Shown: piece by piece, positions 25,950-63,190 of the stretch
Position numbering within the stretch: position 1 is the stretch's first letter
How the letters are laid out: every line of letters starts with the position of its first letter
From: Diphasiastrum complanatum
Lineage: Eukaryota; Streptophyta; Lycopodiopsida; Lycopodiales; Lycopodiaceae
Length of the DNA: 64,000 bases
Direction of reading: 5' to 3'
NCBI GenBank assembly: GCA_029204225.1
Contig: CM055097.1
Coordinates: 13,748,721 to 13,812,720 of the forward strand
Translations under genes and position numbers: made by a program
Notes under the pieces: model-generated
The model's input: the letters and a program-made list of their open reading frames with translations, nothing else
The model's database searches: none
What the model was told of the DNA's origin: nothing

Positions 25950-26938
25950 TGAGAGTGTGTAGCAACATTTATTTGTTCATCATTTGAGTTTTCTTCACTT
26001 CAAATGTCTTCAATGGGTTCATCCTTGTTGGAACCAAGTGAAAGATTGTTCACTTCAAACTATTCAATTTGGAAAATGAGGATGGAGTCCATCTTGATCC
26101 TTCAAGACGTGATGGACATAGTTCTTGGCCTTGAAGAAGAACCACAAGTTCTTCAAGAGGTTCAAAAATATAAAACGAGAGCTAGGATGGCTCTCCACTA
26201 CATTAAGATGAATGTCTCTAATGAGATATTGAGGGAGATAGGTACTTGTACAACAGCCAAAGAAGCTTGGGATCGTCTCAAGACTATCTATGAGGCTAAG
26301 AATACCTCTAGGCTTCTCACTCTTAGGAATCAAATCTTTCAAAGTAGCCAAAAGAGTGATGAGAGTGCATCTAGTTATGTTTTGAGAGTAAAAGATATTC
26401 ATAGAGAACTTGCTTGTATTGGTGATTCCATCAATCAAAATGAGCTAGTTCAAGTCATTCTCAATGGCTTGAGAAGTGAATTTGATAACCTTGTCCAATC
26501 CTATGCCATTAAGGAGGAGCTACCAAGTTTGAAGGCTCTCCAAAGTGTGCTAATTTCAGAAGAATCAAGACAAGAGTACAAGCTCTTGAGGATGGACAAG
26601 CTTTCTCTCACTCATAATGATGGCAAAGCTCTCTTTGCCAAGGATAAGCACAAAGGGAGGAGCAAGAACCAACATCAACAATCCTCAAGCAAGGACAAAG
26701 TCAAATCCAAAGACAAAGATGAGGAGGAAGATGATTCCTCTAATGGTTCATCATCCAAGCTCAAGAAGAAGAAGATCAAGTGCTTTTATTGTGGCAAGAA
26801 AGATCATTATGCCACCAATTGCTTCAAGAAGAAGAATCAACTCAAGCAAGCCAACATTACCAATGAGAAGGAAGATACTGTTGCAAGTGATGGAGAGGGA
26901 TCTCTTATGGTCTCTAGTTTCTCATCTACTCCTTTCAA
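25950..26938 (+). pseudogene. Copia gag fragment nested in the LINE, open frame fused to LINE antisense
   Basis: The ATG at 26,004 opens a 365-codon frame. Residues 1 to about 310 are Copia gag: a UBN2-type domain (LFTSNYSIWKMRMESIL, AKEAWDRLKTIYEA, LTLRNQIFQSSQK, LVQVILNGLRSEFDNLV), a lysine/serine-rich stretch, and a CCHC zinc knuckle CFYCGKKDHYATNC (CX2CX4HX4C). From about 26,939 the frame runs into LINE ORF1 read backwards and ends at 27,101. No LTR or pol accompanies it, so it is a fragment, yet its reading frame is uninterrupted. Confidence 0.88.
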
Positions 26939-27850
26939 AAAGGACGCTCTGGGTGAAAGGTTTGATCATACTCAAAGAGGAAGATGGAGGAAGCTATGTA
27001 TTGCCAGGAACCTTCTGCTAGAGCTCTTTTGGCACTCACTTCATTCTGAAATACAAAATACAAATAGTTCTTGGACAAAAAATGAACTTTGGATAGCATA
27101 ATAACTTTCATCTCCCAGTGGGAAGTGATCCGCCTCTTCAGCTCTTCCAATGGAGGTTTGGGTCCCATGCAAAGCCCCGACAGTGCTCTCTTCTTGTAGT
27201 TTTCCAACGCTTCCTTCTCTACTGCAAAGGGGCTGGAGTGAAACCTGGAGGGAAGTCCCCATCTTCCTTGGTCTTCTCTTTCAGCCTTTCCTCCCATCTT
27301 GAGATGACCTTTTTAGGTGAAAGTAGTTTCTCTGAATCCAAATCCATCTCCTCATCAGCCCATCTAGCTTGCTTTGGGCCTTGTTCTAATCCTATCTCAA
27401 CCCTAAGGCTCTCTTTCCCTTCCCGGTGTTTCTATTCTGGTTTAGAGGCTTCTTCTTGTTCCTTTTCTTGAATCTCTGGCTGAAAGGTTTGCTTGGCAAC
27501 CTTGCTTAGCTTCCACTTTCCTAGCTCATCAGCCATACTTTTCTTGAGTCTTTCTTTGTGCTCCTGGATGGAAGAATGGATGGAATGGATGGAAGAATGC
27601 CCAAGGCTTTCATTTTGCTGCTTGCTTTCCTGTTCTTTGTTGAGGTAGATCTCCAGGAATTTCAAGAAATCATCTTCCCTCTCTCCTTGAAACTGTTCCT
27701 GGAGCTCAATGAGTGCTTGATTGAAGCTCTTTTCCTCTCTCAGTGGGGTGGCTACACTCTTGCTTGTGCTGCCCTGGTGTGTAGCAGCTTCTTTCCTACT
27801 AAAACCTTGCCCATTCTCAACTCCTTGAGATGGTCGCGCTTCTGCAAAAT
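26939..27850 (-). pseudogene. LINE ORF1 fragment (DUF4283-like)
   Basis: Minus-strand frames carry the DUF4283-like nucleic-acid-binding pattern of plant L1 ORF1 proteins: HWEMKVIMLSKVHFLSKNYL, YFVFQNEVSAKRALAEGSW, and FLFEYDQTFHPERPF. Upstream (27,665-27,432) is a charged, glutamine-rich N-terminal region in another frame. The C-terminal zinc knuckles expected of the family are lost at the Copia gag insertion point. Confidence 0.7.
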
Positions 27851-38300: not shown

Positions 38301-40613
38301 TTGTATCGCTTTTTCCTTACAAGATGAGCCCGAAGGAAGAAGATGAGGTTGCTAGGCAACTTGAGGAGTTATTACGTAAGGGTCATATTCGACCCAGTAA
38401 GTCCCCTTGGGGAGCTCCTGTTTGTATTGTTAACCGGCAAGAAAGATGGTGGTATATGCCTTTGTGTCGATTACAAAAAGCTTAATAAAATGACTATTAA
38501 GAACCGTTATCCCATACCTTAGATGGACGACTTAATGGATCGATTGAATGGTGCAAAGTATTTCACCAAATTGGACCTTAGGTCCGGGTTCCATCAAATT
38601 AGAATCTACGAGGCGGATGTTTCCAAAACCGGTTTTCGTTCCAGGTATGGCCATTACAAATTCTTAGTTTTAACCTTTGGTCTAACTAATGCCCTGACAA
38701 CCTTCCAACATATGATGAACAATATCCTTCATCCATATCTAGGAAAGTTTTTGGTGTTATTCTTGGAGGACATTTTGATCTATAGTAGGACTCTTGAGGA
38801 GCATGAAGCGCATTTGCGTACGGTCTTAGATATTCTAAGGCAGACAAAGCTCTATGCTAAGGAGTCTAAGTGTGAGTTTTTTCAAACAAGACTCAAATAT
38901 TTAGGACATATCGTTTCCGATCGAGGTCTTGAGATCGATTACGATAAACTTCAGAAAGTTCGTGATTGGCCAATCTTGAAAACCATAAGGGAAGTTAAAT
39001 CTTTTTTAGGCTTCACAGGCTTTTTCCATAAATTCATAAAAGATTATGCTTTAATGGCATTACCTCTAATGAATCTTCTTAAGGGAGTGAAGAAAGCTAA
39101 AAATAAAACTAAAAAGGGTAATAAGAAGAAAGCCAGAAGGCGTTCGAAAATCAGTCCACCTATTATTTGGACCGATAAATTAAATCAAAGCTTTGAGGCT
39201 TTGAAGATGTTAGTGTCTACCGCCCCTATCTTACACATAGTGGCAAACCTTTCCTAGTGGAAACGGATGCTAGTGACTATGCGGTGGGTGCAGTCCTTTA
39301 CCAAGATGGTAAACCAGTAGCTTTGGACCCAGCTCAAAGTAGGTATTCTACTTATGAGAAGGAACTTTTTGCTGTCATCCACGCATTGAAGACATTATTT
39401 ATATGGATCTCAAATCGTGGTTATGATGGACCACGAATCTCTTAAGTTTATATGTGATGCCTTGGACCTCAGGGGTCGTAAGGCCCGTTTGTCGTTAGTC
39501 ATTTCTGACTACAAGCTGAGTTTATGCTCCACAATTGTTCAGGTCTAAAACTGGCTTGTGTGACAACTTTCACATAACTTGTTACTAGTTGATCAAAGGA
39601 GGTCACCTCCCCATTTAAGGACTTTGGCAGCTTGGGTTTACCATTAGCCATTCTTCTCAAACCTTCTTCAATAGCACATTAGCTCAAATAAATTGCCGCA
39701 ATAAAAAGTCCCAATAGCTGATTTTGTGACCTCTTTGATTATAGAGTAGAGCTACATAGTCAAAAAGTTCTTTGGCATCAAGATCCACTGTGACCTCCAA
39801 TGGCTTTTCAGTTTTTCTCCAAAATGATTTGAGACCCATGCATCATGTTCTTTCCAGAGATATTTCCCTTGCCTAGATTGTGCTATGCTTCTCTATTGCC
39901 TGTGCCTCCTTTCTTTCAAATTCATTCGCATTAAGAAACATTTTTCTTGCCTTGTTTTTCTTGATCATTCCAGTTACTGCGAGAGTGGTTGCCTTTCTTG
40001 GGACTCGTTAATCAATTCTACCCAGGCTTTGGAGGGTTCATCCATATCCGGTGTCGTCATACTTATCACTCTCCATTTCAGCTTCTTCTTCTGCGACTAA
40101 GCGTTGGACATCATGTTTAAGCTCATGATGGTCAGTTGCTAAAACTCTACAATAAGATTTTAGCTGACTGCATTTCTTGAAGACCTAAAGCTCCCTCCTT
40201 TAACTGAGGCTTTCTTTAGCCCTTCTCATAGAATTCAGCTTTGATTTCTGAGCCCTTGATGATGATGATTTGCTGTTGGCAGATAATAATTCCAGTTTAA
40301 GCTCCTCTTGCTCAACAATCGAAGTCTCTAACTGATTCAGCATAGCTACAATCTCAACAAGGATTGAATCAAATTTGTCCAGAAAACAGCTTGCCTTTCC
40401 ACAACGTGATTTACTTCTTCTAGTTTTGACTTTCTGTTCAAGCTCCGTTTACTCTTTCATCTCATTGTGACTTTCCTGTTCATGTGATGGGAAAATGATT
40501 GTTTTTCCTATCGGTGTCGGAGATTTCATCTCCCTCACTGTAGCTGAAAATCTGCTTTGGTGTAATCATTAGAGCTTAATCTCCATTTTCTTTCTGCCAG
40601 AAAGTAGCCATTA

Positions 40614-40676
<63 letters not shown>

Positions 40677-42787
40677 CTATCTCACTAAATGGCAAGACAA
40701 TCCATTTGTGGATCATTTTTTCTTAGCTGTTGTAATTATGGTCTAATGAGATCCTATCTATTTTGTTTCATATTTCTCTTTATTTTTTGGTGCAATCTAT
40801 TATTCTATGTGATGATCATTTGTACACACATTATTACAGGTGAATTCAAAGTTTGAGAAATGTTTATTTCATAGCTTGTAATATATGAACTTCAACATGT
40901 TTTACATTATATGCAATGCAAAAGCATGCTTCAATGTTATTGGTAGGTAGTTGTGTTTGCCATGGTTCCTAATACCCTCAATCAAAGGTGGAAATAGATG
41001 TAAGAACGATAATGATTTGTAACCAATTTTCATAACCCTATAGTTTTCATTTTTTCAGTCTGAAAATAGTAAAATAAAACTCAGATGGATCAGGAGTTAT
41101 ATAATCGAGTTGAACCTTTACCTAGCTAATATATTTTGAATGCTCTTGCCCATTCAGATGAACTTGAAATTTCAAGAAATTTCTTTGTAAAAGCAACTCT
41201 GGCAACAGGCATGCTATATTGCGCTTCTGCACTTGCAGAGACATCCACCGAACATGCTTCACAAAATGGTATTTTTATTTCTTTATTTGAAGCTATTTAT
41301 TTCTGGTTTTGTAGTTTTGACTATTATGTGTTTATTGATAAAGCATTCTTTGTATCAATAAAAAAACAATTTATTATTCTTTTGGTCCAGAGCAAGGCAT
41401 ATATGCTTATTGATTTGGTTAGGCTGGCCTTCTATTGGCCTCTACAACGTCAACTATCAAAATCACGAGTTTGTAAATGGTGGATGTTCATTTAGAAATA
41501 AGCTAATGACAAATTTTGTTGATTCCAACACCTTTTCTGCACAAAGAAGGCTTTTAGCTATTGTAACAAATACTGAAGCCAAATCTTTCTTGTAAAAAAT
41601 GTGCCAGTAAGTGTTGCATTTATTCTTGCATCTGTTTAAATGTTTAGTTGACATTGAAAGTGCTATCTTTGGAGCTTTTAAAGTAAGAATTTAAAACTTT
41701 GCGACTTGGTATAAGATAGTGCTTGAATATTAAGACGTTTCTAATTTATTATATTCTTAACAGGTAGAAGCAGTACGTGAGGCATGATTGTACTTTGTCA
41801 TTTGCTTTTCATTGACCATTCTACCAATTTGAACATCCTTTCAGATAGTGATCTCTTTTCACATTTGTCGAGTTTGGGGGAAAACCCTTTCTGCGTAGTG
41901 GGTTTTCAAAGGTAAAATTTTTCTCAAGATGTGAAGCTCGATGCATGCATGCAAGATTAGCCTCCGTTTTGACCACTTGCTCCCATGTTATTATTTGCTT
42001 AAGCAACGTCTCATTTTGCATTTATGGACTCTAGACTTTATGGTTTTTGGCCCAGTTTTTGGTTATTTACTGATTATCATTTGTATTGACATTTGGCTTT
42101 CTGGCCTCATTTGTGTAGATTGATTAAGAGTAAAGCTTAGTCTACTGTATGTTTAGTAGCAAATTATATATTTGTCCGAATGTTTCGGGTACAATGTGGT
42201 CCAATGTGGGTGCAACAATGCCTGTAAGATTCTGTCAAGGTTGAAAGTCAGAGTGGCTTATTGTGTTACTTTTGATGTCTGTTCTGTCAATTCATTTAGA
42301 GCTACTATTGGGTCCAATGAGGCCTACGATTGGCTTTTCAGTTGTTTTGGCAGTTAGGCCTTACTGGCTTTTTTGTTGAGGGTTTATTGGCTTTTTCAGT
42401 TGTTTTGGCAGTTAAGGCCGTACTTAGCTACATTTGGGACCTCAAAAATATGTGAATGCATGGTGTGGCTCAAGTTGATATCCATGGCACAGCCATTTCT
42501 ACAAAACGTTAAGTCGTGGGATGGGAGACTGGAAACTTTTATTGGAAACTATGAATACCATTGATGGGTCCTCGTTTGGTAGCTTTTACTGATAGAGATA
42601 TGAGTTTCTTTGAGGGAGAACTAGGAAAGGAACAGTTTAGTATAACTTGCAAGGCAATGCAATGTCATGAATATCCGTTTTTTTTTTCTTTTTCCTGCGA
42701 TTCTGGTCCAGAAACGCGTTTCTAGAAACGTTATTTCCCAGAAACGCATTTATGTTCAAGTATGATAAAAATATATACATATATATG

Positions 42788-42834
<47 letters not shown>

Positions 42835-43541
42835 CATAGGTGAGCTAAGCTTTTGTGTTGTGAAGTTCACTCCAACCTGCTCATCCAAATCCACCTCGAC
42901 AGTGGAGGTGGGGGGCTCCGGCTCCGGGTGTGTGTCTCTGCGGAGCCTGTCGCAGCATCTCTGCAATGTCTGCCTCTTGCTTCCGATGCCTTTCGTTGTG
43001 CCTTCGGACATCTTCTTCGAGCTTCCTCCTCGCCTCGCCCTCGGGCTTCGGTGGCATGCGCTCCGCCATCTCGATCAACTTTCTCTCACAGCACCTTGGT
43101 TCTCAAACAGGCTCAAACAGCCTCTCACAGCCTCTCATTGTCTCTCGTTGGCTCTCTCACAGCCTCTGAAAATGCCTCTCACAATGGTATAGTGAGTGCC
43201 TATTTATCCCCACAGCTTGTTTGCCCATGTGCAGTTGTTGATGATCCCTCCATGTGTTGCTCCCCCATGTGCTGCTCTTCCATTGGCCCCATGATCTGCT
43301 CCCCCACAGTGCCCATGTGATGTTGTACCTGCCCCCTGACCCCTGTAATGTCCCCTTTTTTTTGCATTTTTTAGGCCTATTTTACTATAAAAGAGCATTT
43401 TTTAATTATAAAAAATATGAAAAATATATATATATTAAAAATGGTACCGCCCTGGTACCGCGGGTCTGAGGGCGGTACTGTACTGGCGGTACCACCATTA
43501 TGGTACCGGCGGTACCATAATGGCGGTACCACCAGGCACTA

Positions 43542-43601
<60 letters not shown>

Positions 43602-46600
43602 TAGGTCCCGCGGTACTGGGTACCGCGGATCCCGATACCGCGGGACCATACTGGTACCGCGGTACCATGATGGTACCGCGGTACCACAATATAATAATAT
43701 ATTTATTATTTAATATTTTTTTAAATTTTTTTTACCTAAACCTACCCGCCCCCCTCGCATTTCCTCTGAAATTTTTTTGCGCCCTCTCCGCCCTGCCATC
43801 GCTGTTGGTTTTTCTTGCCTGCCTTTGATTCTCTGCGTCGCCCATCGCCCACGCAACGCCCTGCCTTGCATCTGATTTCCTTTGCCCTGCATTCGCCCAT
43901 TTTCAGCGTCTCTCCAACAGTGAACCCTGCTGTTTTTTTTCCAGCAATCCATCCCTCATTTCATCTGCAATGGTGCAATCCGACCTTTCCGGTCTGTGGG
44001 ACGAGGTAGACATTGTCAGGCGGGTTGCCGACAAGGCCAACAAGACCGGTCAGAAGATCGTGCGCTGCCGATACTGTCTCGTCGAGTTTGCTGCATCCCT
44101 CACTCGCCTTAAAGGCCATCTGCTCGGTGCACGCACCAAAAATGGTGCCACCTTGAATGCTGCCCCTTGTGGCAGCATGACCGTGCCCGACAGGCAGCGA
44201 CTATTGGACACCTACGGGCCGCGGCTCGTGGCAGGGGAGAACACCATTTCGGAGGGCGTTCTCCGATTTTGCACCGCTCCTTATGTGACTAACCCAGAGT
44301 TGTTGCCTGCTTGGCTGGCACGCACGAGGAGAGGGAGTGCATCCTCCTCTGGTCCCTTTGCCCCTCAGACAGCTCTGCCTCATGCACCCCCATCTGCTCA
44401 GATTCCGGTGGATCCCGTCCCATCGCGTCCGACAGTTGCCACTGCGGTTCCACCACCACCCACTGTTGCTCGCACTCCACCAGTCTACGACTTTCTCATG
44501 GACTCTCCGCCACCCGAGCAGGCCCAGGATGGTACTGGGCGGGCCTTCGAGGACGTGGAAGAGATCCCTTCTTCCTTCCCTTCCCATCCGGATGACCTCC
44601 TCAGCCAGCAGTTTTCGTACCCCATGCCAGATGTTGCCCCTCCACCAGTGCACCCCACCTATGCTGCTGCACCCATCCCTGCCAGTGCATCCCACTCTCC
44701 CCATTCCACGTCTACAGCCGATGCATCCACCAGCGCCCAGCCTGTCGCGTCATCGTCCATTCCCGTCACGGTTGGTGCACCGTGCTGGAGGTCCACCACC
44801 CGTCGTCCACCAGGGAGAGCCCTCGTGCAGCAGACCATTCGCGGCGCGCATCAGCCGCACATGGACAGAGAGGCCACACAGGCCGTGGGTAGTCTAGTTT
44901 ACGAGCTGAACCTGCCCTTTGCCATCACCGACTCTGAGCCCTTCAGAAGGGCCTTCCGCCTTGCACAGTCTGTCAGCCCTAGCTGGAGAGTCCCTAGTTC
45001 AGAGGTTGTCCGCACACACATGCTGAGGGATAGGGTCGAGTCCTTGTCTAGAGAGATGGAGCCTCTGCGTCGGCACTGGGCCACTTACGGTTGCAGCATC
45101 ATGTCCGATGGCTGGACTGATGTCAGGAGGAGGCCGATCCTCAACATACTGGTCTCCAGCTGCATGGGCACACAGTTTTTGAGGGCAGTGGATTGCAGCA
45201 GGGGGGGGAGAGTCATATCTGCAGAGTTCATGTTTGATGTCATCAGGTCTTCCATCCTAGCCATAGGCCCACAGCATGTCGTCACGGTGGTGACGGACAA
45301 TGCCACGAACTGCATTCAGATGGGTGTACTGCTAGAGGCCGAGTTCCCTCATATTGTTCATACCCCCTGTGCAGCCCACGGCATAGACCTTTTGATGGGG
45401 GACATTGGAGCACTTCCCTGGGTTAGAGCCATCGTCCGGGAGGCCCTCTTCCTGGTGACTTTTGTCACCAGAAAGAGGCGTGTTCTTGCCATGTTCCGGG
45501 TGTTTAGCCATCTGGACCTCCGTAAGCCAGCCCCCACGCGCTTTGCATTCGACTTGGTGGTCATCGACCGTTTGATCAGGTGCAGGGCCCAGCTTCTACA
45601 GATGGTTGCCAGTGATCTTTGGGGTGCCAGTACATTTCCGCACACTGAGGATGGGGAGCACTTTTCTTCCACGGTGAGGGGAGACCAGTTCTGGAGGGAT
45701 GCACAGACATTGTCAGGACTGCTTCGACCACTCTACATTGTGCTCCGCATGGCTGACAGCGAGGGGTCGACACTTGGACTGGTGTATGAGCTCATGGACC
45801 GGATTGGACAGTTCCTGCAGCTGCCCATCTTGCAGCCAGAGAGGTAAGCGGTACAGTGTTGCAATTGACCTTTATCTTTTCAGTACTTGGTAGTTTGTTT
45901 TTCTATCAATGTTAAGCTTTTTCGTAATGCCCTAAACCACATGCCCCTCACCTGCAGGATGACAGAGCTGAAGTTCATATGGGAGACGCGATGGAACTAC
46001 TTCCACAGGAGTATCCACAGCGTTGCACACATGCTGCATCCCCTCTTCCTCTCTCCGACACAGATCGCAGACAGGGAGCTCGAGGCCGATTGGCTTCAGT
46101 ACATTCACAGGGTGGGTCCACACATAGGTTTGGATCCTATCAGGCTCATGGAGGAGCTCGCTGCATTTCGTTTCGGCATGGGCACATTCGGCCACCCGGC
46201 TGCCCAGGATCCAGAGAGGAGGCAGCTACCCATTACCTGGTGGACCATGTTCGGTAGCACATACCCATCTATACAGCGTCTTGCACTGCGTGTCCTTTCT
46301 CAGGTATGCATCTCATTTTATCCTCCATTGTTTGTGTTTCGTTGAAGTTTCACCTCTGCCACAATGTGCTGAAGTATTTCAATGCACGCACCACAGGATT
46401 GTGCTGCCTCCGTGTGTGAGCGTAACTGGAGCACATGGGCACTCATTCACACGAGGAGAAGAAACCGGTTGTCAGTGAGTCAGTTGGAGCGGTTGGTGTT
46501 CTGTAGCACCAACGCACGTCTCGCCAGGAGGCTTCCGACCATTACGAGCGCATTGCAGGTGATAAGCTAATCTTTCATAGCATGTTGGTTGACTCCTGGT

Positions 46601-49600
46601 ATGTTGGTTTCATTTCTTGATAAAGTTGTCTCTCTGACATGCAAATTTTAAACCTTGCAGACGAAGATATCTGATTTGGAGCGCCAGGTTGACTTGCCTA
46701 CGGACAGCACCCATCCCATGCCTGCAGATGACCTGGGCACACAGTTGATGGCAGAGAGAGAGAGGGAGCTTGCCGAGATGAGAGAGAGAGAGCTTGGGCT
46801 TGAGCACAGAGAGCCCCCATTGTATGAGGCAGATGAGCCAGTGTCAGAGGATGAGCATGATGAGGATGAGCCCATTCGGGTTGTGTTTGCCAGACCAGAG
46901 AGGGATGAGGCAGATTATACAGGTGCAGGGCACACGCCACGGGCAGGGGTCACAGGTGCATCACGTGGCAGAGGTGGGACACATGGCACAGGTTATACCG
47001 GCAGACAGGCAGGGCACACAGGGGGGGGCAGTGGCATACCTACCTATGTCGACATGATGGAGGAGGCTCTTGATAGAGGGCAGAGTGGTTTAGATGCCGG
47101 TCCCGCAGATGTTTGGATGCGTGCAGCACAGAGTCATGGCCGTTACTACGACAGCACACCAGAGGAGGCACCTGATGACTTTCATTGCACAGATTGGGAG
47201 GCCATGCAGGGTCTACAGGGTGCACATGATGAGGCACGGGATGAGGCTTGGGTTGATTCAGGGGTCGGTGCACAGGATGATTTAGAGGTCGGTGCACAGG
47301 ATGATTTAGAGGCTGGTGCACAGGATGAGTCCCAGAGCCCAGAGCATTTGTATTCGGATGCCCAACTGGCCGACTTGGTTGCCACATTGGATTCAGAGGC
47401 CCAGCAGATGCCGAGTGTCAGGGCGCCCCCATCATCTCTTGCCAGCATGCCACACACAGAGTCCCAGCCAGAGCAGCCGCATGAGGTGCCTACAGTTCCT
47501 CCAGCTCCTCAGAGGGTGTATGTGCGTCGCACAGCTCCTCCAGTGCCACCGATGCCATTTAGGCCTGCAGCCCCTCCATCGCCGTCCACTTCTGCAGCAC
47601 CAGGTCTCCATGGCAGGCCACCATCTGTGCCCAGGTTTTCTCTTGCAGCGCCCACATCCACAGTGGCTCCTCCAGTGGCAGCACCCACGTCACATCCTCC
47701 TCCTTTGGCAGCACCCAGGATGTACCAGTACCGGCCACCACAGCGCCCCTTTCAGTACATATCGCCACTGTACTCGCCTCCTGCACAGCCAGTTCCTCCA
47801 CCTGCAGCAGCCCCACGGGCACACACTCCACGAGCTCATCCTCCTCGCTCAGTTGCACAGGGAGTTCCCTCTTTTGCTTCCCTATCCCAGCCGGCCTCAG
47901 CTTGGGCCCAGCCTAGCCAGCCAGGTGATTTGCATGGGGGTGACGAGGCATTGACAGCTCCTCTTGTCCGCAAGAGACCAGGCAGGCCCAAGGGTGCACC
48001 GAACAAGAAAGGCAAGGCACAGAAACTGCCAGGGAGGAGAGGACGACCACGCAGGGCTCCAGGTACAGGTAGAGGTGCAGTATCACAGCCAGTTGGAGCA
48101 GGTGTTGTTGGTTTGGCCTGCTTGGGGGCTGATGCGGAGGCTGATTGGGAGGATGAGGATGACGAGTCTTCCCCCTCGGATATACAGCCCATGCCAGTTC
48201 CAGACAGGCAGAGATATCGGCTGCGAGAGTCAGCTCGGGGCCCTGAGTTGTCTCCAGAGCATTCGTCTGAGTCAGAGCCAGAGCATTGATTGTGGCTCTG
48301 TTGTTTTAGTTTCAGTAGTTTGTCTCTAGCAGACGGTCTACCATTGTACTCAGATGATTTTTCACATTATATACAGTGTTTGGCCTACATTATTTGCTGC
48401 ACATTGTGCGTATGTCGCTCTGTACATGTGATGCTTTATTTTATGTTGAAGAATTCTATGTGCGTGTGTGAATCCTATTTTCATTTAATTTCGTTTGAAG
48501 TGAATGCTAGCTTCACATATATGCACCTACATCATGAGCACAGCAATCACCCCTACTCCCCAAACGACATTGAATAAACACATGTAATACATCTGCATTT
48601 AAAAAAATTACAGACATTGTATCTTACATGACCAGGCTCGCGTTGCACAAAAAACAACTATGTATATATTCAACCGTTGTATCAAGATAACATCACATAT
48701 ACTGTCATTATTTTAAGCAGCCATCTAGTTATTTGCTGCACCATAAACTGCCGAAAACTACATAGCAACAGTCCGCCACATACGGGTGGACCTCATCTAT
48801 TCTAAACATCCCTCACTGATCCTCCACCGACTCCTCGCCCTCGTCTGGTGCATTGTTTTGTCGCTCTTGTTCTGCCTCCCGGTTAGCCCGAGCTGCCTCC
48901 TGGTTAGCCCGACGTCTGGCCGCCCTTTCCCTGACCATGATGAGCTGCCGTCGTGTGAAATTCATTCCGATCTGCTCATCCAGATCCACCTCGACAGCGG
49001 GGACAGGATCCACAGCGGGGGCGGGTGGCTCCGGTTCCGGATTTCTCTGTCGAGTCTGTCGCAGCATCTCTCGGATATCTGCCTCTTGCTTCCGATGCCT
49101 CTCGTTGTGCCTTCGGATATCTTCCTCAAGCTTTCTCCTGGCTTCGCCCTCGGGCTTCGGTGGTATTCGCTCAGCCATCTCGATCGACCTTCTCCTCACA
49201 GCACCCTGATCCTTGAACACCCTCTCACAGCACCCTGGCTCTCAAACAGCCTCTCACAGCCTGTCACCGGCTCTCGCTTGCTCTCTCACTGTCTATCAAT
49301 AGCCCTCTCACAGCCTCTGAAAATGCCGACCACAATGGCATTATGAGTGCCTATTTATCCCCACAGCCTGATCGGCCATGTGGATCCCCATCATCCCTCC
49401 ATGTGCCTCCGTACCTGCCCCCATGTGATGCTCCCCCCTGTGTTGGTCTCCCATTGGGCCCATGGTCTGCTCACCCACAATGCCCATGTGCCTCTGTACT
49501 TGCCCCCATGTGATGCTACCCCCCTGTGTTGGTCTCCCATTGGCCCCTCGGTCTGCTCACTCGCAGTGCCCATGTGCCATTGCAACAGTCCCCTGCAACA

Positions 49601-52600
49601 TGTACTGTACCCTCTTTTTTTACACCCAGAACCCCCTTTTTTTACATTTTTTTGTCCTTTTTTGGTAGTTAATATGCAAAAAAAAATTACTAAAAATATA
49701 TTAAAAAATAAAAAAAAATATTAAAAATGGTACCGCCCTGGTACCGCGGATCCCAGGGCGGTACCGTACCGGCGGTACCACTGATATGGTACCGGCGGTA
49801 CCATACCAGCGGTACCAGAGGGTACTATGATATATATCATAGATCCAGCGGTACTGGGATCCGCGGATCCCGGTACCACGGATCCATACCTATCCGCGGT
49901 ACCACAATATTTATTATTTTTTAATATATAATATTTTTTAGTATTTAATATATTAATATATTTTTTTTTAACCTAATCTCCCCCCCTCGCTTCATCTCTC
50001 TCCCTGCCCATCGCCTTGCTGTCCGCGCCCTCCCTGCTGTTCGCGCCCTCTCTGTTGTATGCCCACTCCTTGCCATCATACTGTGTTCGCGTTGCACTGA
50101 TCGCGTCCGCCCCTGCTATTGCTATTTCGGCCTTTGTTGTGGTTTTCTCAAGCCTTCCGACTCCTATCGCACTCACAGAGATCTCTGCCTTCTTTCCCTA
50201 GTTCCTTCTACAGAGATGGTTCATTCCAACCTTGCCAATCTGTGGGACGAGGTGGACATTGTCAGGCGGGTTCCCGACAAGTCCAACAAGTCCGGTGCAA
50301 AGATTGTGTGCTGTCGATATTGCCTGGCCGAGTTCGTTGCCACCCTCACTCGCCTTAAAGGCCACCTACTCGGCACACGAGCCAAAGATGGTGGCACACT
50401 GAATGCGGCCCCCTGTGCCAGCATGTCTGTTCCCGTCAGGCAGTGACTTCTGGATACCTACGGGCCACGTCTTGTGGCAAGGGAGAACACCATTTCGGAG
50501 GGTGTTTTTCGGTTTTGCACCGCTCCTTACATGGTTGACCCCGAGTTGCTGCCTGCTTGGCTGGCACACACGAGGAGAGGGAGTGCATCCTCGTCCAGTC
50601 CCTTTGCCCCTCATCCCCCTCAGACAGTTCCGCCTCACGCACCCCCATCTGCACCCATTCCGGTGGATCCCGTCCCATCGCGTCAGCCAGTTGCCACTGC
50701 GGTTCCACCACCACCTACTGTTGCTCGCACTCTCCCAGTTTACGACTTTCTCATGGACTCTCCGCCACCCAAGCAGGAGCAGGCCCCGGATGCCAGTGAT
50801 GAGGCCTTCCAGGATGTTGAGGAGATCCCTTCCTCCCTCCCTTCACATCCGGATGACCTCCCTAGCCAGCAGTTTTTGTATCCCATGCCAAATGTCCCCC
50901 CTTCACCAGTGTATCCCACTTATGCTGCTGCACCCATCCCGGCCAGTGCATCCCACTCTCCCCATTCCACGTCTACAGCTGATGCATCCACTAGTGCCCA
51001 GCCTGTCGCGTCATCATCCATTCCGTCACGTTTGGTGCACCGTGCCGGAGGTCCGCTACCCGTCGCCCAGCTGGGAGAGTTCTTAGGCAGCAGAGCATTC
51101 GCGGCGCGCATCAGCCACACATGGATAGAGAGGCCACACAGGTCGTGGCCAGTCTGATTTATGAGCTGAACCTTCCATTTGCCATCACCGACTCTGAGCC
51201 CTTCAGAAGGGCCTTCCGCCTTGCACAGTCTGTCAGCCCCAGCTGGAGAGTCCCTAGTTCAGAGGTTGTCCGTACACACATGCTGAGGGATAGGGTCGAG
51301 TCATTGTCTAGAGAGATGGAGCCTCTACGTCGCCACTGGGCCACTTATGGTTGCAACATCATGTCCGATGGCTGGACTGATGTTAGGAGGAGGCCAATCC
51401 TCAACATATTGGTCTCCAGCTGCATGGGCACACAATTTTTGAGGGCAGTGGATTGCAGCCATATCTGCAGAGTTCATGTTTGATGTCATCAGGTCTTCCA
51501 TCTTGTCCATAGGCCCACAACATGTCGTCACAGTGGTGACGGACAATGCCACGAATTACATTCAGATGGTTGTACTGCTAGAGGCCGAGGTCCCTCACAT
51601 TGTTTATACCCCCTGTGCAACACACGACATAGACCTTCTGATGGGGGACATAGGTGCACTTCCCTGGGTTAGAGCCATCGTCCGTGAGGCCCGAGGCGTG
51701 TTCTTGCCATGTTCCGGGTGTTCAGCCAGTTGGACCTCAAGAAGCCAGCCCCCACACGCTTTGCATTCGACTTGGTGGTCATTGACCATTTGATCAGGTG
51801 CAGGGCACAGCTTCTTCAGATGGTTTCCAGTGATCTTTGGTGTACGAGTACGTTTCAGCACACTGAGGATGGGGAGCACTTTTCTTCCACGGTGAGGGGA
51901 GACCAGTTCTGGAGGGATGCATAGACATTGTCAGGACTGCTTCGACCACTCTACATTGTGCTCCGCATGGCTGACAGCGAGGGGTCGACACTTGAACTGG
52001 TATATGAGCTCATGGACCGGATCGGACAGTTCTTGCAGCTGCCCATCCTACAGCCAGAGAGGTAAGCGGTACAATAATGTAATTGGTCTTTATCTTTTCA
52101 GTGGTTGCTAGCTTGTTTTTCTGTCAATGTTACGTTTTTTTGTAATGCCCAGGTTTTAACATGCCTCTCACCTGCAGGATGACCGAGCTGAAGTTCATCT
52201 GGGAGACGCGGTGGAACTACTTCCACAGGAGTATCCACAACGTTGCACACATGCTGCATCCCCTCTTCCTCTCTCCGACACAGATCGCAGACGGAGCTCG
52301 AGGCCGATTGGCTTCAGTACATTCACAGAGTGGGTCCACACATAGGTTTGGATCCTATCAGGCTCATGGAGGAGCTCGCTGCATTTCGTTTTGGCATGGG
52401 CATGTTCGGCCCCCCGACTACTCAGGATCCAGATAGGAGGCAGCTTCCCATTACCTGGTGGACCATGTTCAGTAGCACATATCCATCTATACAGCGTCTT
52501 GCACTGCGTGTCCTTTCTCAGGTATGCACAGGATGAGGCACGGGATGAGGCACAGGATGATCCAGAGGATGGTGCACATGATGAGTCCTAGAGCCCAGAG

Positions 52601-55270
52601 CATTTGTATTCGGATGCCCAGCTGGATGACTTGATTGCAGAGTTGGATTCAGAGGCCCAGCAGATGCCGAGCGTCAGGGCACCCCCATCCTCTCTAGCCA
52701 GCATGCCCTACACAGAGTCTCAACCAGAGCAGCTACACGAGGTGCCTGCAGTTCCTCCACTTCCTCAGAGGGTGTATGTGCGCCGCACAGCACCTCCAGT
52801 GCCACCGATGCCATTGAGGCCTACAGCCCCTCCATCGCCATCCACTTTTGCAGCACCAGGTCTCCATGGCAGGCCACCATCTGTGCCCAGATTTTCTCTT
52901 GCAGCGCCCACATCCACAGTGGCTCCTCCAGTGACAACACCCACGGCACGTCCTCCTCCCTTGGCAGCACCCATGGCACCGGCTCCTCCTTTGGCAGCAC
53001 CCAAGATGTACCAGTACCGGCCACCGCAGCGCCCCTTTCAGTACTTATCGCCGCTGTACTTGCCTCCTGCAGGGACGGCCCCTCCACAACCAGTTCCTCC
53101 ACTAGCAGCAGGCCCACGGGCACACACTCCACGGACCTATCCTCCACTATTAGCTGCACAGGGACACCCATCTTTGGCTTCTCTATCCCAACCGGCCGCA
53201 GCTTGGGCCCAGCCTAGCCAGCCAGGTGATCTGCATGGGGGTGATGAGGCATTGACGGCTCCCCTCGTCCGCAAGAGGCCAGGAAGGCCCAAGGGTGCAC
53301 CGAACAAGAAAGGCAGGGCACAGAAACAGCTAGGGAAGAGAGGACGACCTCGCAGGGCTCCAGTTGCTGGTAGATGTACAGTATCACAGCCAGCTGCAGC
53401 AGGTGTTGTTGGTTTGGCTTGCTTGGGGGCTGATGCGGAGGCAGATTGGGAGGATGAGGATGACGAGTCTTCCTTCTCGGATACACAGCCCATGCCAGTT
53501 CCAGACAGGCATAGATATCAGTTGCGAAAGTCAGCTCGGGGCTTTGAGTTGTCTCTGGAGCATTCGTCTGAGTCAGAGCCAGAGCATTGATTGTAGCTTT
53601 GTTATTTTATTTTTAGCAGTTTGATATCATGTTCCGTGTTCGGCGGCCAGATGGTCGAACACTGTATTTAGACCATTTTCCATATTATATTCAGTGTTGG
53701 ACATACTTAATTCGCTGCACATTTTGTATTTGTCGAATTGTGATGCTCTGTTTTCAATTTTATTTCGAATGGTATGTGTGTATTTTGAATTAGTTTCAAC
53801 TGCAGAGATTGATAGCAGATGCACTACAAAGAAATACAACCCCCTTGATAGCATTTCATAAACACATATATTACATTGCAATTTCCTAGGCACGCGTTGC
53901 ACAAAAAACACATTGAACATTAATTCAACAGTGGTATCAAAATAACAATACGTATCCCGCCACATATGGCTGGGGCTATTCTTTACACTATGTTAGACAC
54001 TAAATGCTGCCTCATCTACTCCTGAAAATTACATAACAACAGTCAGCCACATACGGCTAGACCCCATCTATTCTAAACATTCCTATGGATCCTCCACTGA
54101 CTCCTCGCCCTCGTCAGGTGCCCATGTGAAGTTCATTTCGATCTGCTCATCCAAATCCAGCTCGACAGCGGGGGCGGGGGGCACAGGGGGAGCTGGGTGC
54201 TCCGGCTCCGGATTTTTCTGCCGAGCATGTCGCAGCATCTCTGCAATGTCTGCCTCTTGCTTCCGATGCCTTTCGTTGTGCCTTCGGACATCTTCCTCGA
54301 GCTTCCTCCTGGCTTCGCCCTCAGGCGTTGGTGATATGCGCTCCGCCATCTCACGACACCCTGTTTCTCGAACTGGCTCTCATAGCCTCTCACAGCCTCT
54401 CAATGGCTCTCACTGGCTCTCTCACAGCCTCCCTCTCACAGCCTCTCACTGGGTCTGTGACACAGCCTCTCACAATGCCTCTTGATGATACCTGTCACTG
54501 GCTCTCTCTCACAGCCTCTCACAATGCCTCCCACAGCCTCTCACTGGCTCTCTCACTGCCTCGTGAGTGCCTATTTAACCCCACAGCCTGTTTCCCCATT
54601 TGCACTTGATGATCCCATGTGCTACTGTACCTGCCCCATGTATTGCTCCCCCACATGCTGCACTCTGATTGGGTCTGTGGTCTGCTCCTCCACAGTGCCC
54701 ATGTGACGGTGTACCTATCCGGATTTGCTGCTCCCCCACATGCTGCACTCCGATTGGGTCCGTGGTCTGCTCCCCCATAGTGCCCAACGGGGTTGGCTCA
54801 ACTGGTTAGCTTGGCATCCAAAGTTTCTTTGGTCCCAGGTTCGAGCCTCCCCTTGAAAACCAAGAAGCATAGTGCCCATGTGACGGTGTACCTCCTGTCC
54901 GGATTTGCTGCTCCCCCACATGCTGCACTCCGATTGGGTCCGTGGTCTGCTCCCCCATAGTGCCCATGTGACGGTGTACCTGTCCGGATTTGGTGCCCCC
55001 CCACATGCTGCACTCCCATTGACCACAAGGTCTGCTCTCCCACAGTGCCCCCAGTACAGTCCCCTCTGTACAGTAACATCTTTTTTCTAAACCCTAAGCC
55101 TTTTTTTTCCTGAATTTTTTACCCTGTATTAGCCTGTTAAAAGGGTTTTTTTATTAAAAAAATAATAATAATAATAAAAAGTATTATTTTTGTGGTGCCG
55201 CTGGTCTGAGGGCCACACCATAACCGCGGTACCACCATTATGGCGGTACCATAATGGCGGTACCACGTGC

Positions 55271-55308
<38 letters not shown>

Positions 55309-58300
55309 TTTCAGTTCACATTTGATCAACATAGTACATTTCCTATTTTTTTTTTGCATTTTCTTTCAACATTCCCATCATTCATGTGTTGTTTTTGTCA
55401 TAATTTTGTGTCTTGTTAGACATGTTACAAGAGTTGGAAATGCTACCATATAAACGAGAAGGCTACAACTATTGGATGTGGAGGGGTCATAAAGTGCACT
55501 ATGTTGTCAAAGGAGAAGGTCGCCCGGTTGTACTTATACATGGCTTTGGTGCCTCAACTTTTCATTGGAGGTCTATTTCAAACAGGGTCTTCTTTTTCCA
55601 TAGATATTTTAAAGGAAATTATAAGAAGAAAGGATCTAGCAAGAATCTATATTCTTTTTAAAAAAAATCTTGCTTGAATTTTTTGTTGTTGGTGCACTAT
55701 TCAAGTGTAACATTACCTAATTTTTACAAAAGAGTATAGTATTACTTCTGCTTAATTAACATGATTTTCTTGGTTGTTTTAGGTACAATATTCCCGAATT
55801 AGCAAAACATTTTAAGGTGTACGCCATGGATTTGCTAGGTTTTGGGTTGTCAGAGAAAGCACTTATTGACTACAACCCTTTTGTATGGAGAGACCAAGTT
55901 GCTGACTTCGTACAAGAGATTGTTGCAAAGCCGGCTGTTCTTGTTGGAAATAGGTTTGCCTTTTCATATTCGAGTTCCATGTTGGCTATTATGTTAAAAT
56001 TTAAAATATATCCAAGACACGATAGATCCACATTGGTTGCAATAGCACTTGGAGAATGCAATTCAAAGTTAGTTACAGTTGAGACTTCGTCCACCTAACT
56101 TCCTCTGATAATACTTTCAGAGCTTGTTTGACAATGTGGACCCAAAAACTATTGTATGCCCTTTTGAAGGGTCATAGTCAATAATTTTTATGATTTTATT
56201 TCTCAAGTTCTTTCTAGAAGACACATTGTTCTTCTTTGTAGGGAATAATTTAAAAACTATATTTCATGTTCCCTCAATATTCTTAGTTGGAGAATGCTAT
56301 TGCTACATCTGTTGTGGTCTATCATTCTTATGTGATGCCAAATTTGTGAGTCAGTTCATAACATGGTAGAGCACTTTCTTGGGTGCATGAGGATTATCTT
56401 TCTTGCGACTTGCTATGCCACCAATGATTTTTGAATAGTGATTGTTCATAAATGGTCTACCAAGTAGCGTGGTCTTCAAGGTTTTTGATTGGAACAACGA
56501 TCGAGTTTTCATCTTGTCGAAGTTATTTCTATCACATCTGAGGGCAAAGGCAAGGAAAGCACTTTTTAGCATTGTGATACAAGGAAAGCACTTTTTAGCA
56601 TTAGACATGTAGTATATTACATGTCGCACACCAAAGCAATATTCATGATATTGGATTTATTTTCTCTAGCCTCTATGGTCATATGCAAGTTGGTCATTGT
56701 GCACTTTTTGCATGATATGGGACTTGTGCACCAGATTTGGCACAATCCACAAGGACTCAGGTCAAGGCAATCAAATTGGTAGATCATGTGTTGGCAATCC
56801 TCTTTCGTTTGTGTGGATTACCTTGGGTGATTGTGAGTGATCGTGATCCCAAGATGCTATCTTCAACTTGTTGGAGACAAGATTGGCCATGAGTACCAGA
56901 TGGACAAATTGAATAGGTGTACCAAATGGTTAAGGATATGCTTCGCATTTTTTATTACTAATAAAGGAGATGAATGGGATTTATTTATAACAATACAACT
57001 ATTTGTAAGAGTCCATTTATGGATATATATGGATATGGCCTAGTGGCCAAAGGCTCTAGTCTAGATGAACTCGCCAATTGCAAGGTGGAGAATGCAAAGG
57101 AATATTGAATAGATTTGCAAAAGAACTCAATTCTGCCAAGTAAAACATGAAGTGAGCCCAAGAAATTGCCAAGGGCTTTACTGATCAACATAGGAGATGC
57201 TTGAAGTTCTAAGAAGGGGAAAAGGTTTACCATTCCTGTTTCTAAGTACTCCAAGACTCTGCGCACTATCAAGTGTCCAAAGTTTTTGCCTTGTAGTTGG
57301 GATCTTGAAGGTTAAACATGATGAGAAAAAAGTTTTGCATAGTTTGGTTAAGTTGGAGTGAAAATGGTACTGATTCTGAATTGAGGCATTTAAGGTAAGT
57401 GAACTAAGAGCTAAGCATTTGATCAATGAACCAACAATAATAAACCTCATTAGCCTATTTATATCATCCGAGGCTCTAGGTCTATGAGCTACGGCTGGAG
57501 CTCTGATAATGACCATAGAAACTGACTAGTGCCAAGTCTGCTTATTGGGAGCCTAATTGCCGAGAGAAAAAGGTATAGTGTCAAATGATAAGCTAGGGGG
57601 ACGAAGCCCAAGATGTTGCGCATCAAGGACCTACAAGTTATTGAGTATGCCGATTTCTAATTTTATGCATTTTCTTACTTCCTTTAGTCAAAGCGTGGCC
57701 AAGTTGACAATGGTTATATAGAAGTGTAACTCTAGTTTATCCTTTGTATGTGCATGCCCTTCCAATTACTAGTGCCAATTTCGACCAGAAATTAGTGCAG
57801 TCATTTAGTTGGTGGCTACTTTGTAAGTGAATGTTTTGGTAGGAGGAAAAACCTTTGGGTGCTTCTTGAGGAAGTGTGTGTGACATTCTTCATTGAAACT
57901 TGAATCAGAACATGTGCAAGCTAATTGACAAGGTTCTTTAAACTGCATATCTACGTTCATTGGATGGAAACTTAGATCTCTTGAGCTAGCCTAAAAAGGG
58001 GGAACAATTTCATAAAGTTTGAACTAAAGAAAGAATCAGGTGACTAGAATTTGAGAAAAAAAAGTGCTCCAAGTTAGGAACATCTGCGGATAGAAAATTG
58101 TTGACTTACTACCATTCAGATCAGGTTAGTAATATTGCTCTTTATTTATCTTCATCTATCAATTGTGCTTTTGAAACTATTGCAATTTGTGTTGTTTGCA
58201 GTATCGGTGGATTCACAGTCCTTCTGACAGCAGCAGCCTTTCCTCAACTTACTTCAGGGCTGGTCCTTCTTAATGCATCAGGCCAGTTTGAAGTGCCTGA

Positions 58301-61499: not shown

Positions 61500-63190
61500 T
61501 TGTGCATTTTGCGAGTTTCTCGTTGTCCATGATTCCACAAAAAGGTTGCACATGGTGCCACTACATGATGTGGTCTAGTAGAAATGAAATGAGCCACTTA
61601 GTGCACCTATCCACCACCACAAAACACTATTAACCATCTTTTGTAAGGTTAACAGTGTTTCTCCCTCTATGAGACACCAACAAATGATTCCATCCCTCCC
61701 TTTTTTATATAGTTGTCCTGCAATGAGGGTGTAGGGAACGGATTTGTAAATCAAGGCATGTTGAACAGGTTTAGGTACATTGGAATCAATTTGGCCTATA
61801 GTAAGATATTCAGTGATTTCGTGGGCCCAAACTTGGGTGTAGTCCACCTGAAATAAGATGGCATCAGGAAGGTCATCATTTACACCTTCTGTTGGTTTGT
61901 CATTGCTAGGGATTCGTGAAAGATGATCAGCTAAAAAATGTTGCTAACCACTTTTAACAACAACACGAAACTCAAATTCTTGAAGTAACAACAACCAGCA
62001 TGCTATGTGTCTAGTGGTGCATGTCTTGTTCAGAAGATTAAATAACGCCTAATGATCGGTATAAAACGCAAAGGATTTTCCTAAAAGATAACGACGAAAC
62101 TTTTGAACTGCATACACCATAGCAAGTGCTTCCCTCTCGGTAGTGGTATAATTCATCTCGGCTGGAATTAGTTTTCTACTTAAGAATCAGATAGGATAAT
62201 CCTTGGAATTTACACCAGGTTGCGTCAAGACAGTGCCAACAATGGCATACTTGGAAACATCCGTGTGCACATGGAATTTCTTGGAATAATCGGGTGCTCA
62301 CAAATGGGGGCACTGGCTAGAGCATCTTTGAGGTCTTTAAATGCATGGCCATGCTCTTCTACCCATTTTGGATCTACAGTTAATTGGTACATCCAATGTG
62401 TCTTACCTGCAAAGTCATGTACGTGACAACGATAGTAAATTGCATGGCCCATAAAGATCGGGACCTCACGCACGGTTCTAGGTGCTAGCATCTCTACAAT
62501 TACTTGAATCTTTTTGGGATCAATAGCAATTCCATTCCAGGATATGATGTGTCCAAGAACGGCACCATGAGTAACCCAGATCTGGCATTTCTCAGGATTA
62601 AGAGAGATACCATACCTTTGGCACTGAATGTATATTTTTTCAAGTAAGTGAACTCCTAGGTCACCTAAATAGACTTCTAGCGTATCTCCTATCAAGTCCG
62701 TGAAGGTTGCTTGCATGACATGTTGGAAGGTACTAGGAGCGTTACATAATCCAAAAGACATAACCTTCCAACAAAATGTTCCCCATTCCGTGGCAAAAGC
62801 AGTTTTGTATTGATCTTCAAGCGCTATTTCTATCATGTTGTAACCGCTAAAGCCATCTAAAAAGGAATAAGCCTCATCCCCAGCCAAATTCTCTAATGTG
62901 GCTTCTCCGAATGGAATGGAAAAATGGTCACTTTTAGTGACCGCATTAAGCTTCTTAAAGTCGACACAAATTCAAAGCTTCCCATTCTTCTTAGTACAAT
63001 TACGATGGGCAACACCCATTCCATATGTTCAACCTCATAGATGAACCTGGCCTCCAGTAGGCATTGTAATTCTTCCTTAATCTTGGCACAGTATATGGGA
63101 TTACATATATCTGGAACTAGATAATCGATATATTCTAGCTAATTGATTATTCCATCCAGAACAACTGTGTGAAACACGATGGATTAGCAT
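61500..63190 (-). pseudogene. Ty3/Gypsy pol (RT, RNase H, integrase start), minus strand
   Basis: Starts at about 63,190 with IKEELQCLLEARFIYEVEHM, then the main open frame 62,887-62,225: AYSFLDGFSGYNMIEIALED, KTAFATEWGTFCWKVMSFGL, and VYLGDLGVHLLEK, where the YLDD catalytic box has become YLGD. RNase H follows: EMNYTTTEREALAMVYAVQK and FAFYTDH, then a tail leading to the integrase zinc-binding region (PYTLIAGQLYKKGRDGIICW) near 61,750-61,680. Stops between RT blocks and the D-to-G change show it is dead. Similar in type to the fragment at 4.4-5.1 kb. Confidence 0.88.

Follow-up and report, generated by a model that had tools for sequence, protein, structure and literature searches.

Evidence that a hAT transposon family of Diphasiastrum complanatum inserts mainly into AT microsatellites and forms arrays by adjacent insertion

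In a 64,000-nucleotide stretch of the genome of the lycopod Diphasiastrum complanatum (GenBank assembly GCA_029204225.1, contig CM055097.1, forward-strand positions 13,748,721–13,812,720; the window), three related transposable elements, here called E1, E2 and E3, stand one after another with only AT repeat between them. This layout, first described in a sequence-only reading of the window, raises the question of how such an array comes about. Our answer is that it very probably reflects a recently active hAT family that moves by cut-and-paste, duplicates 8 base pairs (bp) of its target, inserts mainly into (AT)n and builds arrays by adjacent insertion. The array is laid out as follows, in window coordinates.

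42760..42834: AT-rich imperfect microsatellite left of the array (read from the sequence)
42835..43543, forward strand: E1, derivative or remnant of the right end of a related element, with CATAGGT leading into right-hand sequence and CACTATG at the end (from sequence and alignment)
43544..43599: pure (AT)28 spacer between E1 and E2 (read from the sequence)
43600..49829, forward strand: E2, full hAT element with ends CATAG...CTATG (from sequence and copy comparison)
49830..49837: 8-bp junction ATATATAT, the right duplication of E2, directly abutting E3 (from sequence and the flank table)
49838..55277, forward strand: E3, related decayed element with a broken frame and the right end CTATA (from sequence, alignment and translation)
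55278..55305: (AT)14 right of E3 (read from the sequence)

The spacing between E2 and E3 is exactly eight bases, as had been claimed, and AT repeat is all that parts the elements, namely (AT)28, ATATATAT and, after E3, (AT)14. The description of three elements with CATAG...CTATG ends stands for five of the six ends; it fails for the right end of E3, where the terminus CACTATA carries a single G-to-A difference from CTATG, and for E1 as a whole. Since CATAGGT of E1 is followed at once by sequence that aligns with the right-hand part of E2 and E3 (85% and 80% identity in the aligned pieces), E1 is, judged by its sequence, a right-end derivative or remnant and not a whole element. Where the two can be aligned, E3 and E2 are about 87% identical; the transposase frame of E3 is broken and, read from its own ATG, meets its first stop at codon 77. 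Compared with the majority sequence of 18 near-full-length copies, E2 has 45 differences, a larger number than 15 of the 17 other copies have, and is therefore not among the freshest of the family. It is probably the youngest of the three, and most likely inserted beside E3 rather than E3 beside it. The arrangement is not a chance one: termini joined by AT repeat recur genome-wide, where backward patterns give none, and ATATATAT has 15 starts in 101.3 kilobases (kb) of control DNA.

The first genome search gave 1,502 candidates; 40, all identical over 301 bases, were scored. The flank sample comprises 40 copies, E2 and 39 others, with 38 left ends and 38 right ends readable, and both ends in 36. 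The 8-bp flanks are identical in 34 of these 36. The matched octamer is ATATATAT in 23 of the 34 and another octamer in the remaining 11, every one of which matches at 8 bp (one copy, L022, also at 15). Four copies stand at sites where there is no AT tract and have the matching flanks TGTTAATG, GTCCATAA, ATTTAGAC and AAATAAAT. A second sample took 60 of 77 listed left ends that had not already been used, all on C1–C3 (two of its junctions, neighbours in L032 and L062, had already been seen); here the left octamer is ATATATAT in 39 of 60 and TATATATA in none. Thus the flank tabulation proposed in the sequence-only reading, run here with a shorter query on 40 copies and 60 left ends, returned 8-bp duplications with ATATATAT predominant (23 of 34 matched flanks, 39 of 60 left octamers), bearing out the claim that the family inserts into AT microsatellites; non-AT duplications at random frequency were not what it gave.

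Control DNA consisted of 20 random 2.5-kb stretches of C1–C6 together with the window outside the array. It holds 15 starts of ATATATAT and 13 of TATATATA, so that 0.005 occurrences of ATATATAT are expected among 34 flanks; the corresponding P of 1.6e-84 was computed with 24 occurrences, one above the true count of 23. The enrichment of ATATATAT over control DNA is thousands-fold. Ten of the 15 control starts fall in one tract, itself beside a family end; the only long AT tract of the random stretches is in L081, where 26 bp of AT and a match to a family left end share one 200-bp piece. The exact 29-base left end occurs 619 times genome-wide (backward control 0), and TATATATA precedes none of the 619; nor does it occur among the 34 matched flanks. 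The hAT element Hermes favours T at position 2 and A at position 7 of its target octamer (PMC8721813). Of 16 non-microsatellite octamers of the E2 family, eight have both of these bases, where 1.46 are expected (P 3e-5); the 16 were chosen by eye, four being matched on both sides and 12 being left flanks only. Within an AT tract ATATATAT obeys this T2/A7 rule at every second base and TATATATA never does. The single phase would thus come from the hAT target rule. The rule matches about 9% of random positions and so accounts for the phase but not for how strong the AT preference is.

Arrays are common in the family. With the terminal 200 bp of E1–E3 as the query, 24 of the 40 copies have a BLAST match to a family end no more than 200 bp away on one or both sides (23 without one 19-bp match; L028 and L054/L053 are mutual neighbours). 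In the second sample, 21 of 60 copies have such a match on the left side, all of at least 55 bp, and 13 ends are joined to CTATG by pure A/T. By comparison, 6 of 240 pieces of 200 bp of random DNA match a family end, those shown mostly over 15–30 bp. A right end followed by an AT spacer of 12–42 bp and CATRG gives 189 pattern matches genome-wide and none in the reverse control; the distinct junctions are fewer, because tail-to-tail junctions match on both strands. A single exact pattern for short right-to-left junctions, with spacers of 0–16 bp, finds 41 (control 0). Their spacers measure 1 bp (two), 2 bp (two), 8 bp (six), 10 bp (two), 12 bp (seven), 14 bp (eight) and 16 bp (14); none is of 3–7 bp, and 37 of the 41 are even and at least 8 bp long. 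This floor at 8 fits the prediction from re-use of the 8-bp duplication. One of the six 8-bp junctions, on C3, is the non-AT octamer GTTTGAAG. The neighbours mix orientations and subfamilies: among 21 read in the second sample, 13 are head-to-tail, five head-to-head and three unclear. Two AT-tract insertions, L020 and L058/L057, lie inside the AT-rich subterminal right-hand part of a relative, and so nesting occurs. The idea that arrays grow through the microsatellite duplicated by relatives is therefore upheld by the neighbour counts and by spacers that start at 8 bp and are even when longer, with four exceptions of 1–2 bp. Those exceptional junctions (T or AT) are seen in L149 (C9) and L150 (C13), each occurring twice in the genome; deletion, imprecise excision and duplicated segments are candidate origins.

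That E2 is a hAT element was also part of the earlier reading, and its coding content agrees.

43970..48289, forward strand: E2 transposase gene, 1336 amino acids, frame intact, four predicted exons at 43970–45843, 45958–46303, 46397–46558 and 46661–48289 (from translation)

The exon borders are predictions from GT/AG and the reading frame, with three predicted introns removed. The protein matches the Pfam families DUF659 (4.8e-40) and Dimer_Tnp_hAT (2.5e-8), and its C-terminal dimerisation region matches the C-terminus of Hermes (3e-4). The Pfam search did not find a BED zinc finger in it; some DUF659 relatives carry this domain (PF02892). The terminal inverted repeats, CATAG...CTATG, are perfect over 5 bp, and hAT termini begin with CA and end with TG. 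GGTACC is confined to the two end regions of E2, with five copies in the first 300 bp, seven in the final 230 bp and none in the 19 bins that separate them, and in this it resembles the subterminal repeats of other hAT elements. E2 thus combines the 8-bp duplication, a dimerisation domain with a DUF659-type catalytic region, CA...TG ends and the T2/A7 target bias. The element belongs to the hAT superfamily and is not Mutator-like, since its duplications are of 8 bp, not 9–10, and its domains are those of hAT; it works like the microsatellite-targeted Mutator-like elements. The nearest named transposase relatives are from ferns: Ceratopteris matches 64% of the exon-1 query at 37% identity, and Adiantum matches 18% of the query at 53%.

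The age of the family was judged from 18 near-full-length copies, E2 and 17 of 20 retrieved (three were removed by a length or end filter). They differ by 0.67% on average in pairwise comparison, and nine of the 18 keep the whole frame. The family is apparently young, recently active and still capable of transposition. An element in L009 lacks about 2 kb corresponding to the left part of E2 and still has the matching 8-bp non-AT flank TGTTAATG. Provided that the deletion preceded the insertion, this suggests that internal deletion derivatives have transposed.

We take as established the hAT domains, the matching 8-bp flanks, the AT preference with its single phase, the AT-joined arrays (with an 8-bp minimum and four exceptions among 41) and the mixed orientations and subfamilies, and we infer that the transposase made the insertions. 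An ordinary cut-and-paste insertion, mainly in (AT)n, would copy ATATATAT as its 8-bp target duplication and leave the new copy flanked by target on both sides; because of this, relatives could insert again beside the earlier copy and arrays would grow in either orientation.

One locus bears on whether the tracts precede the elements. The flanks of the copy in L060/L059 resemble another repeat, of which a copy in L039 is empty. The empty site has (AT)22, bordered on its two sides by CGCTTCCTTAG and CAAACATGAGGGTCCG; the filled site has similar borders and 20 + 22 bp around the element. The sequence GCTTCCTTA stands beside an AT tract at four loci (L039, L060/L059, L015 and L052), as would be seen if a different repeat family, carrying (AT)n of its own, had served as a landing site there. 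Genome-wide, tracts of (AT)15 or more followed by C or G have 8,746 ends, of which 2,054 (23%) are followed by CATAG, compared with four in the backward control; CATAG alone does not tell which subfamily borders a tract. An element that carries or makes its own AT tract was considered as well and is ruled out by the copies at TGTTAATG, GTCCATAA, ATTTAGAC and AAATAAAT, which have matching 8-bp flanks and no AT tract.

It is unlikely that the elements entered short ATATATAT sites whose flanking tracts then expanded during or after insertion. Such expansion has been proposed for maize TAFT (PMC5907723), and the joined tracts with pure AT on both flanks are all at least 24 bp long here, as expansion would have it. 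Against it stand the related repeat whose empty site is already (AT)22 (a comparison based on short flanking similarity), the 6,692 of 8,746 long tract ends that do not lie at CATAG (some of which may be far ends of occupied tracts), the insertions into irregular AT/GT/AC tracts that keep matching 8-bp flanks, and the four copies at non-AT sites, which have grown no AT tract. Integration into microsatellites of extrachromosomal circles with AT filler, by homologous recombination and without transposase, has been put forward in the SaTar model for Mutator-like arrays (PMC5907723). We regard it as very improbable in the E2 family, where the matching 8-bp flanks at complex sites, the single phase, the 8-bp minimum and the agreement with the T2/A7 rule point to a transposase; nothing in recombination would favour one phase or make the spacers stop at 8.

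The arrays might also be tandem duplications produced by unequal crossing-over between AT tracts. A few unusual spacers do recur in a second junction (two junctions on C9, two on C13 and one each on C79 and C1672), and these may be duplicated segments, but identity between the adjacent E2 and E3 is about 87%, compared with the 0.67% mean difference among the 18 dispersed copies, and the 21 neighbours read include head-to-head pairs, so that we give crossing-over very little weight as the general origin. Least credible is random insertion without targeting, followed by survival only in harmless AT repeats. Microsatellites are presumably low-cost sites, yet survival would have to produce a thousands-fold enrichment among copies that differ by 0.67% on average, and a phase preference cannot come from survival. 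Insertion by the transposase into existing (AT)n thus remains our preferred reading.

The T2/A7 rule leaves the strength of the AT preference to another source, and the C-terminal part of the transposase offers a candidate in two motifs.

47975..47992, forward strand: first AT-hook-like motif, RPGRPK, amino acids 1233–1238 (by sequence)
48035..48052, forward strand: second AT-hook-like motif, RRGRPR, amino acids 1253–1258 (by sequence)

Both are motifs that we take to resemble the AT-hook core. They lie in a tail of 542 amino acids encoded by exon 4; E2 has 1336 amino acids in all, compared with 740–765 in eight of ten database matches, from a search that could not return much shorter ones. 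Two such motifs arose in one of 20,000 shuffles of the tail, the motif having been chosen after the tail was seen. Both are conserved in E3, and over 313 codons of the tail nonsynonymous divergence (dN) between E2 and E3 is 0.075 and synonymous divergence (dS) 0.194. A basic GRP motif was found in none of 36 database relatives, many of which are partial gene models. Tentatively, the extra strength of the AT preference may come from this tail, whose two motifs would hold the complex on the AT-rich minor groove. A bolder proposal, which we consider doubtful though worth stating, is that the transposase acquired a C-terminal two-AT-hook module tethering it to (AT)n, and that, as each insertion adds eight bases of the repeat that the element seeks, element and microsatellite enlarge each other in a self-reinforcing niche, with about a quarter of the tested long AT tract ends bordering elements with these ends.

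Several observations weigh against our account or limit its reach. Two of the 36 copies with both ends readable have no 8-bp match: in one the flanks disagree at a single one of the eight bases, and the other has a diverged sole left end (84%) that is probably foreign. In L014 the left end falls in a gap and the right flank, TATATGTA, is out of phase. A pure-AT match fits any even length, so only the irregular sites prove a duplication of 8 bp. The random control stretches come from C1–C6 only, and general genomic DNA is the only control for the AT preference. The empty site in L039 is paralogous, not allelic, sharing 11 bp on one side and 16 bp followed by gapped similarity on the other, and because the pure-AT joined tracts are all at least 24 bp long, later tract growth may have occurred. 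The four junctions with spacers of 1–2 bp need deletion or another route. Outer copies of GTTTGAAG were not found in 13.5 kb around its junction, and for this reason that junction alone does not prove re-use of the duplication. As to the tail, Pfam finds no AT-hook in the E2 protein at E 10, with filters that drop most weak hits, and the link between the AT-hook-like motifs and the AT preference is a correlation only.

Two further coding features accompany the array.

48816..49178, reverse strand: second, convergent frame in E2, 121 amino acids (from translation, E3 comparison and a database match)
55425..55589, forward strand: host exon piece, alpha/beta hydrolase

The 121-amino-acid frame has a shortened copy in E3 (88 amino acids) and a 62-amino-acid remnant in E1; dN is 0.10 and dS 0.47 between E2 and E3 over 88 aligned codons. 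Its sole relative in the protein database, 86% identical, is from D. complanatum, and no Pfam domain was found in it. The alpha/beta-hydrolase gene extends rightward of the array, with exon pieces from about 55425. Elsewhere in the window, open frames that resemble retrotransposon gag/pol by eye lie at 11582–12334, 26004–27101, 38523–39257 and 62225–62887.

Among hAT elements, Hermes, hobo and Ac share with the E2 family the 8-bp duplication, the hAT dimerisation domain and CA...TG ends; we know of no microsatellite targeting or arrays of this kind in them. No hAT precedent for microsatellite arrays was found among the matches listed in the open-access literature searched.

The closest parallels come from Mutator-like elements, for which microsatellite-mediated stacking has already been published (PMC5907723, PMC8449440). 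SaTar of guayule and rice, like the E2 family, inserts into (TA)n, forms end-to-end arrays joined by microsatellite and also has copies at ordinary sites, where the duplication is as long as is usual in its superfamily. It is Mutator-like and mostly non-autonomous, makes 10-bp duplications and uses other microsatellites too, whereas the E2 family is hAT, with 8-bp duplications and full coding copies; an interrupted element is reported in none of over 300 SaTar clusters, whereas two copies of the E2 family lie inside a relative (PMC5907723). The Ac-mMITEs of pineapple share (TA)n targeting, a young burst and clusters of adjacent insertions (46.1% of full-length mMITEs), but are Mutator-derived miniature inverted-repeat transposable elements (MITEs) of 210–570 bp with 9- or 10-bp duplications, whose autonomous partner was not found (PMC8449440). 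MuTAnT of Medicago also targets (TA)n and has a putative autonomous member; unlike the E2 family it is Mutator-like with 9-nucleotide duplications, and hAT is not mentioned in the text of that paper (PMC4486113). (TA)n targeting is also cited in these papers for Micron of rice and TAFT of maize, and the T2/A7 bias is shared with Hermes (PMC8721813).

According to a carrot MITE paper (PMC8227079), it is unclear what steers transposons to TA microsatellites; a targeting family with young copies and an intact transposase makes the question testable with one protein and one tail deletion. Our tract counts suggest that elements of this kind can border a large share of the long AT tracts of a plant genome. 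Microsatellite targeting and stacking are thus known from Mutator-like elements, and the hAT case is new as far as our searches show. A second superfamily thus appears to have come to stack in microsatellites, with a phase that the known hAT target rule predicts.

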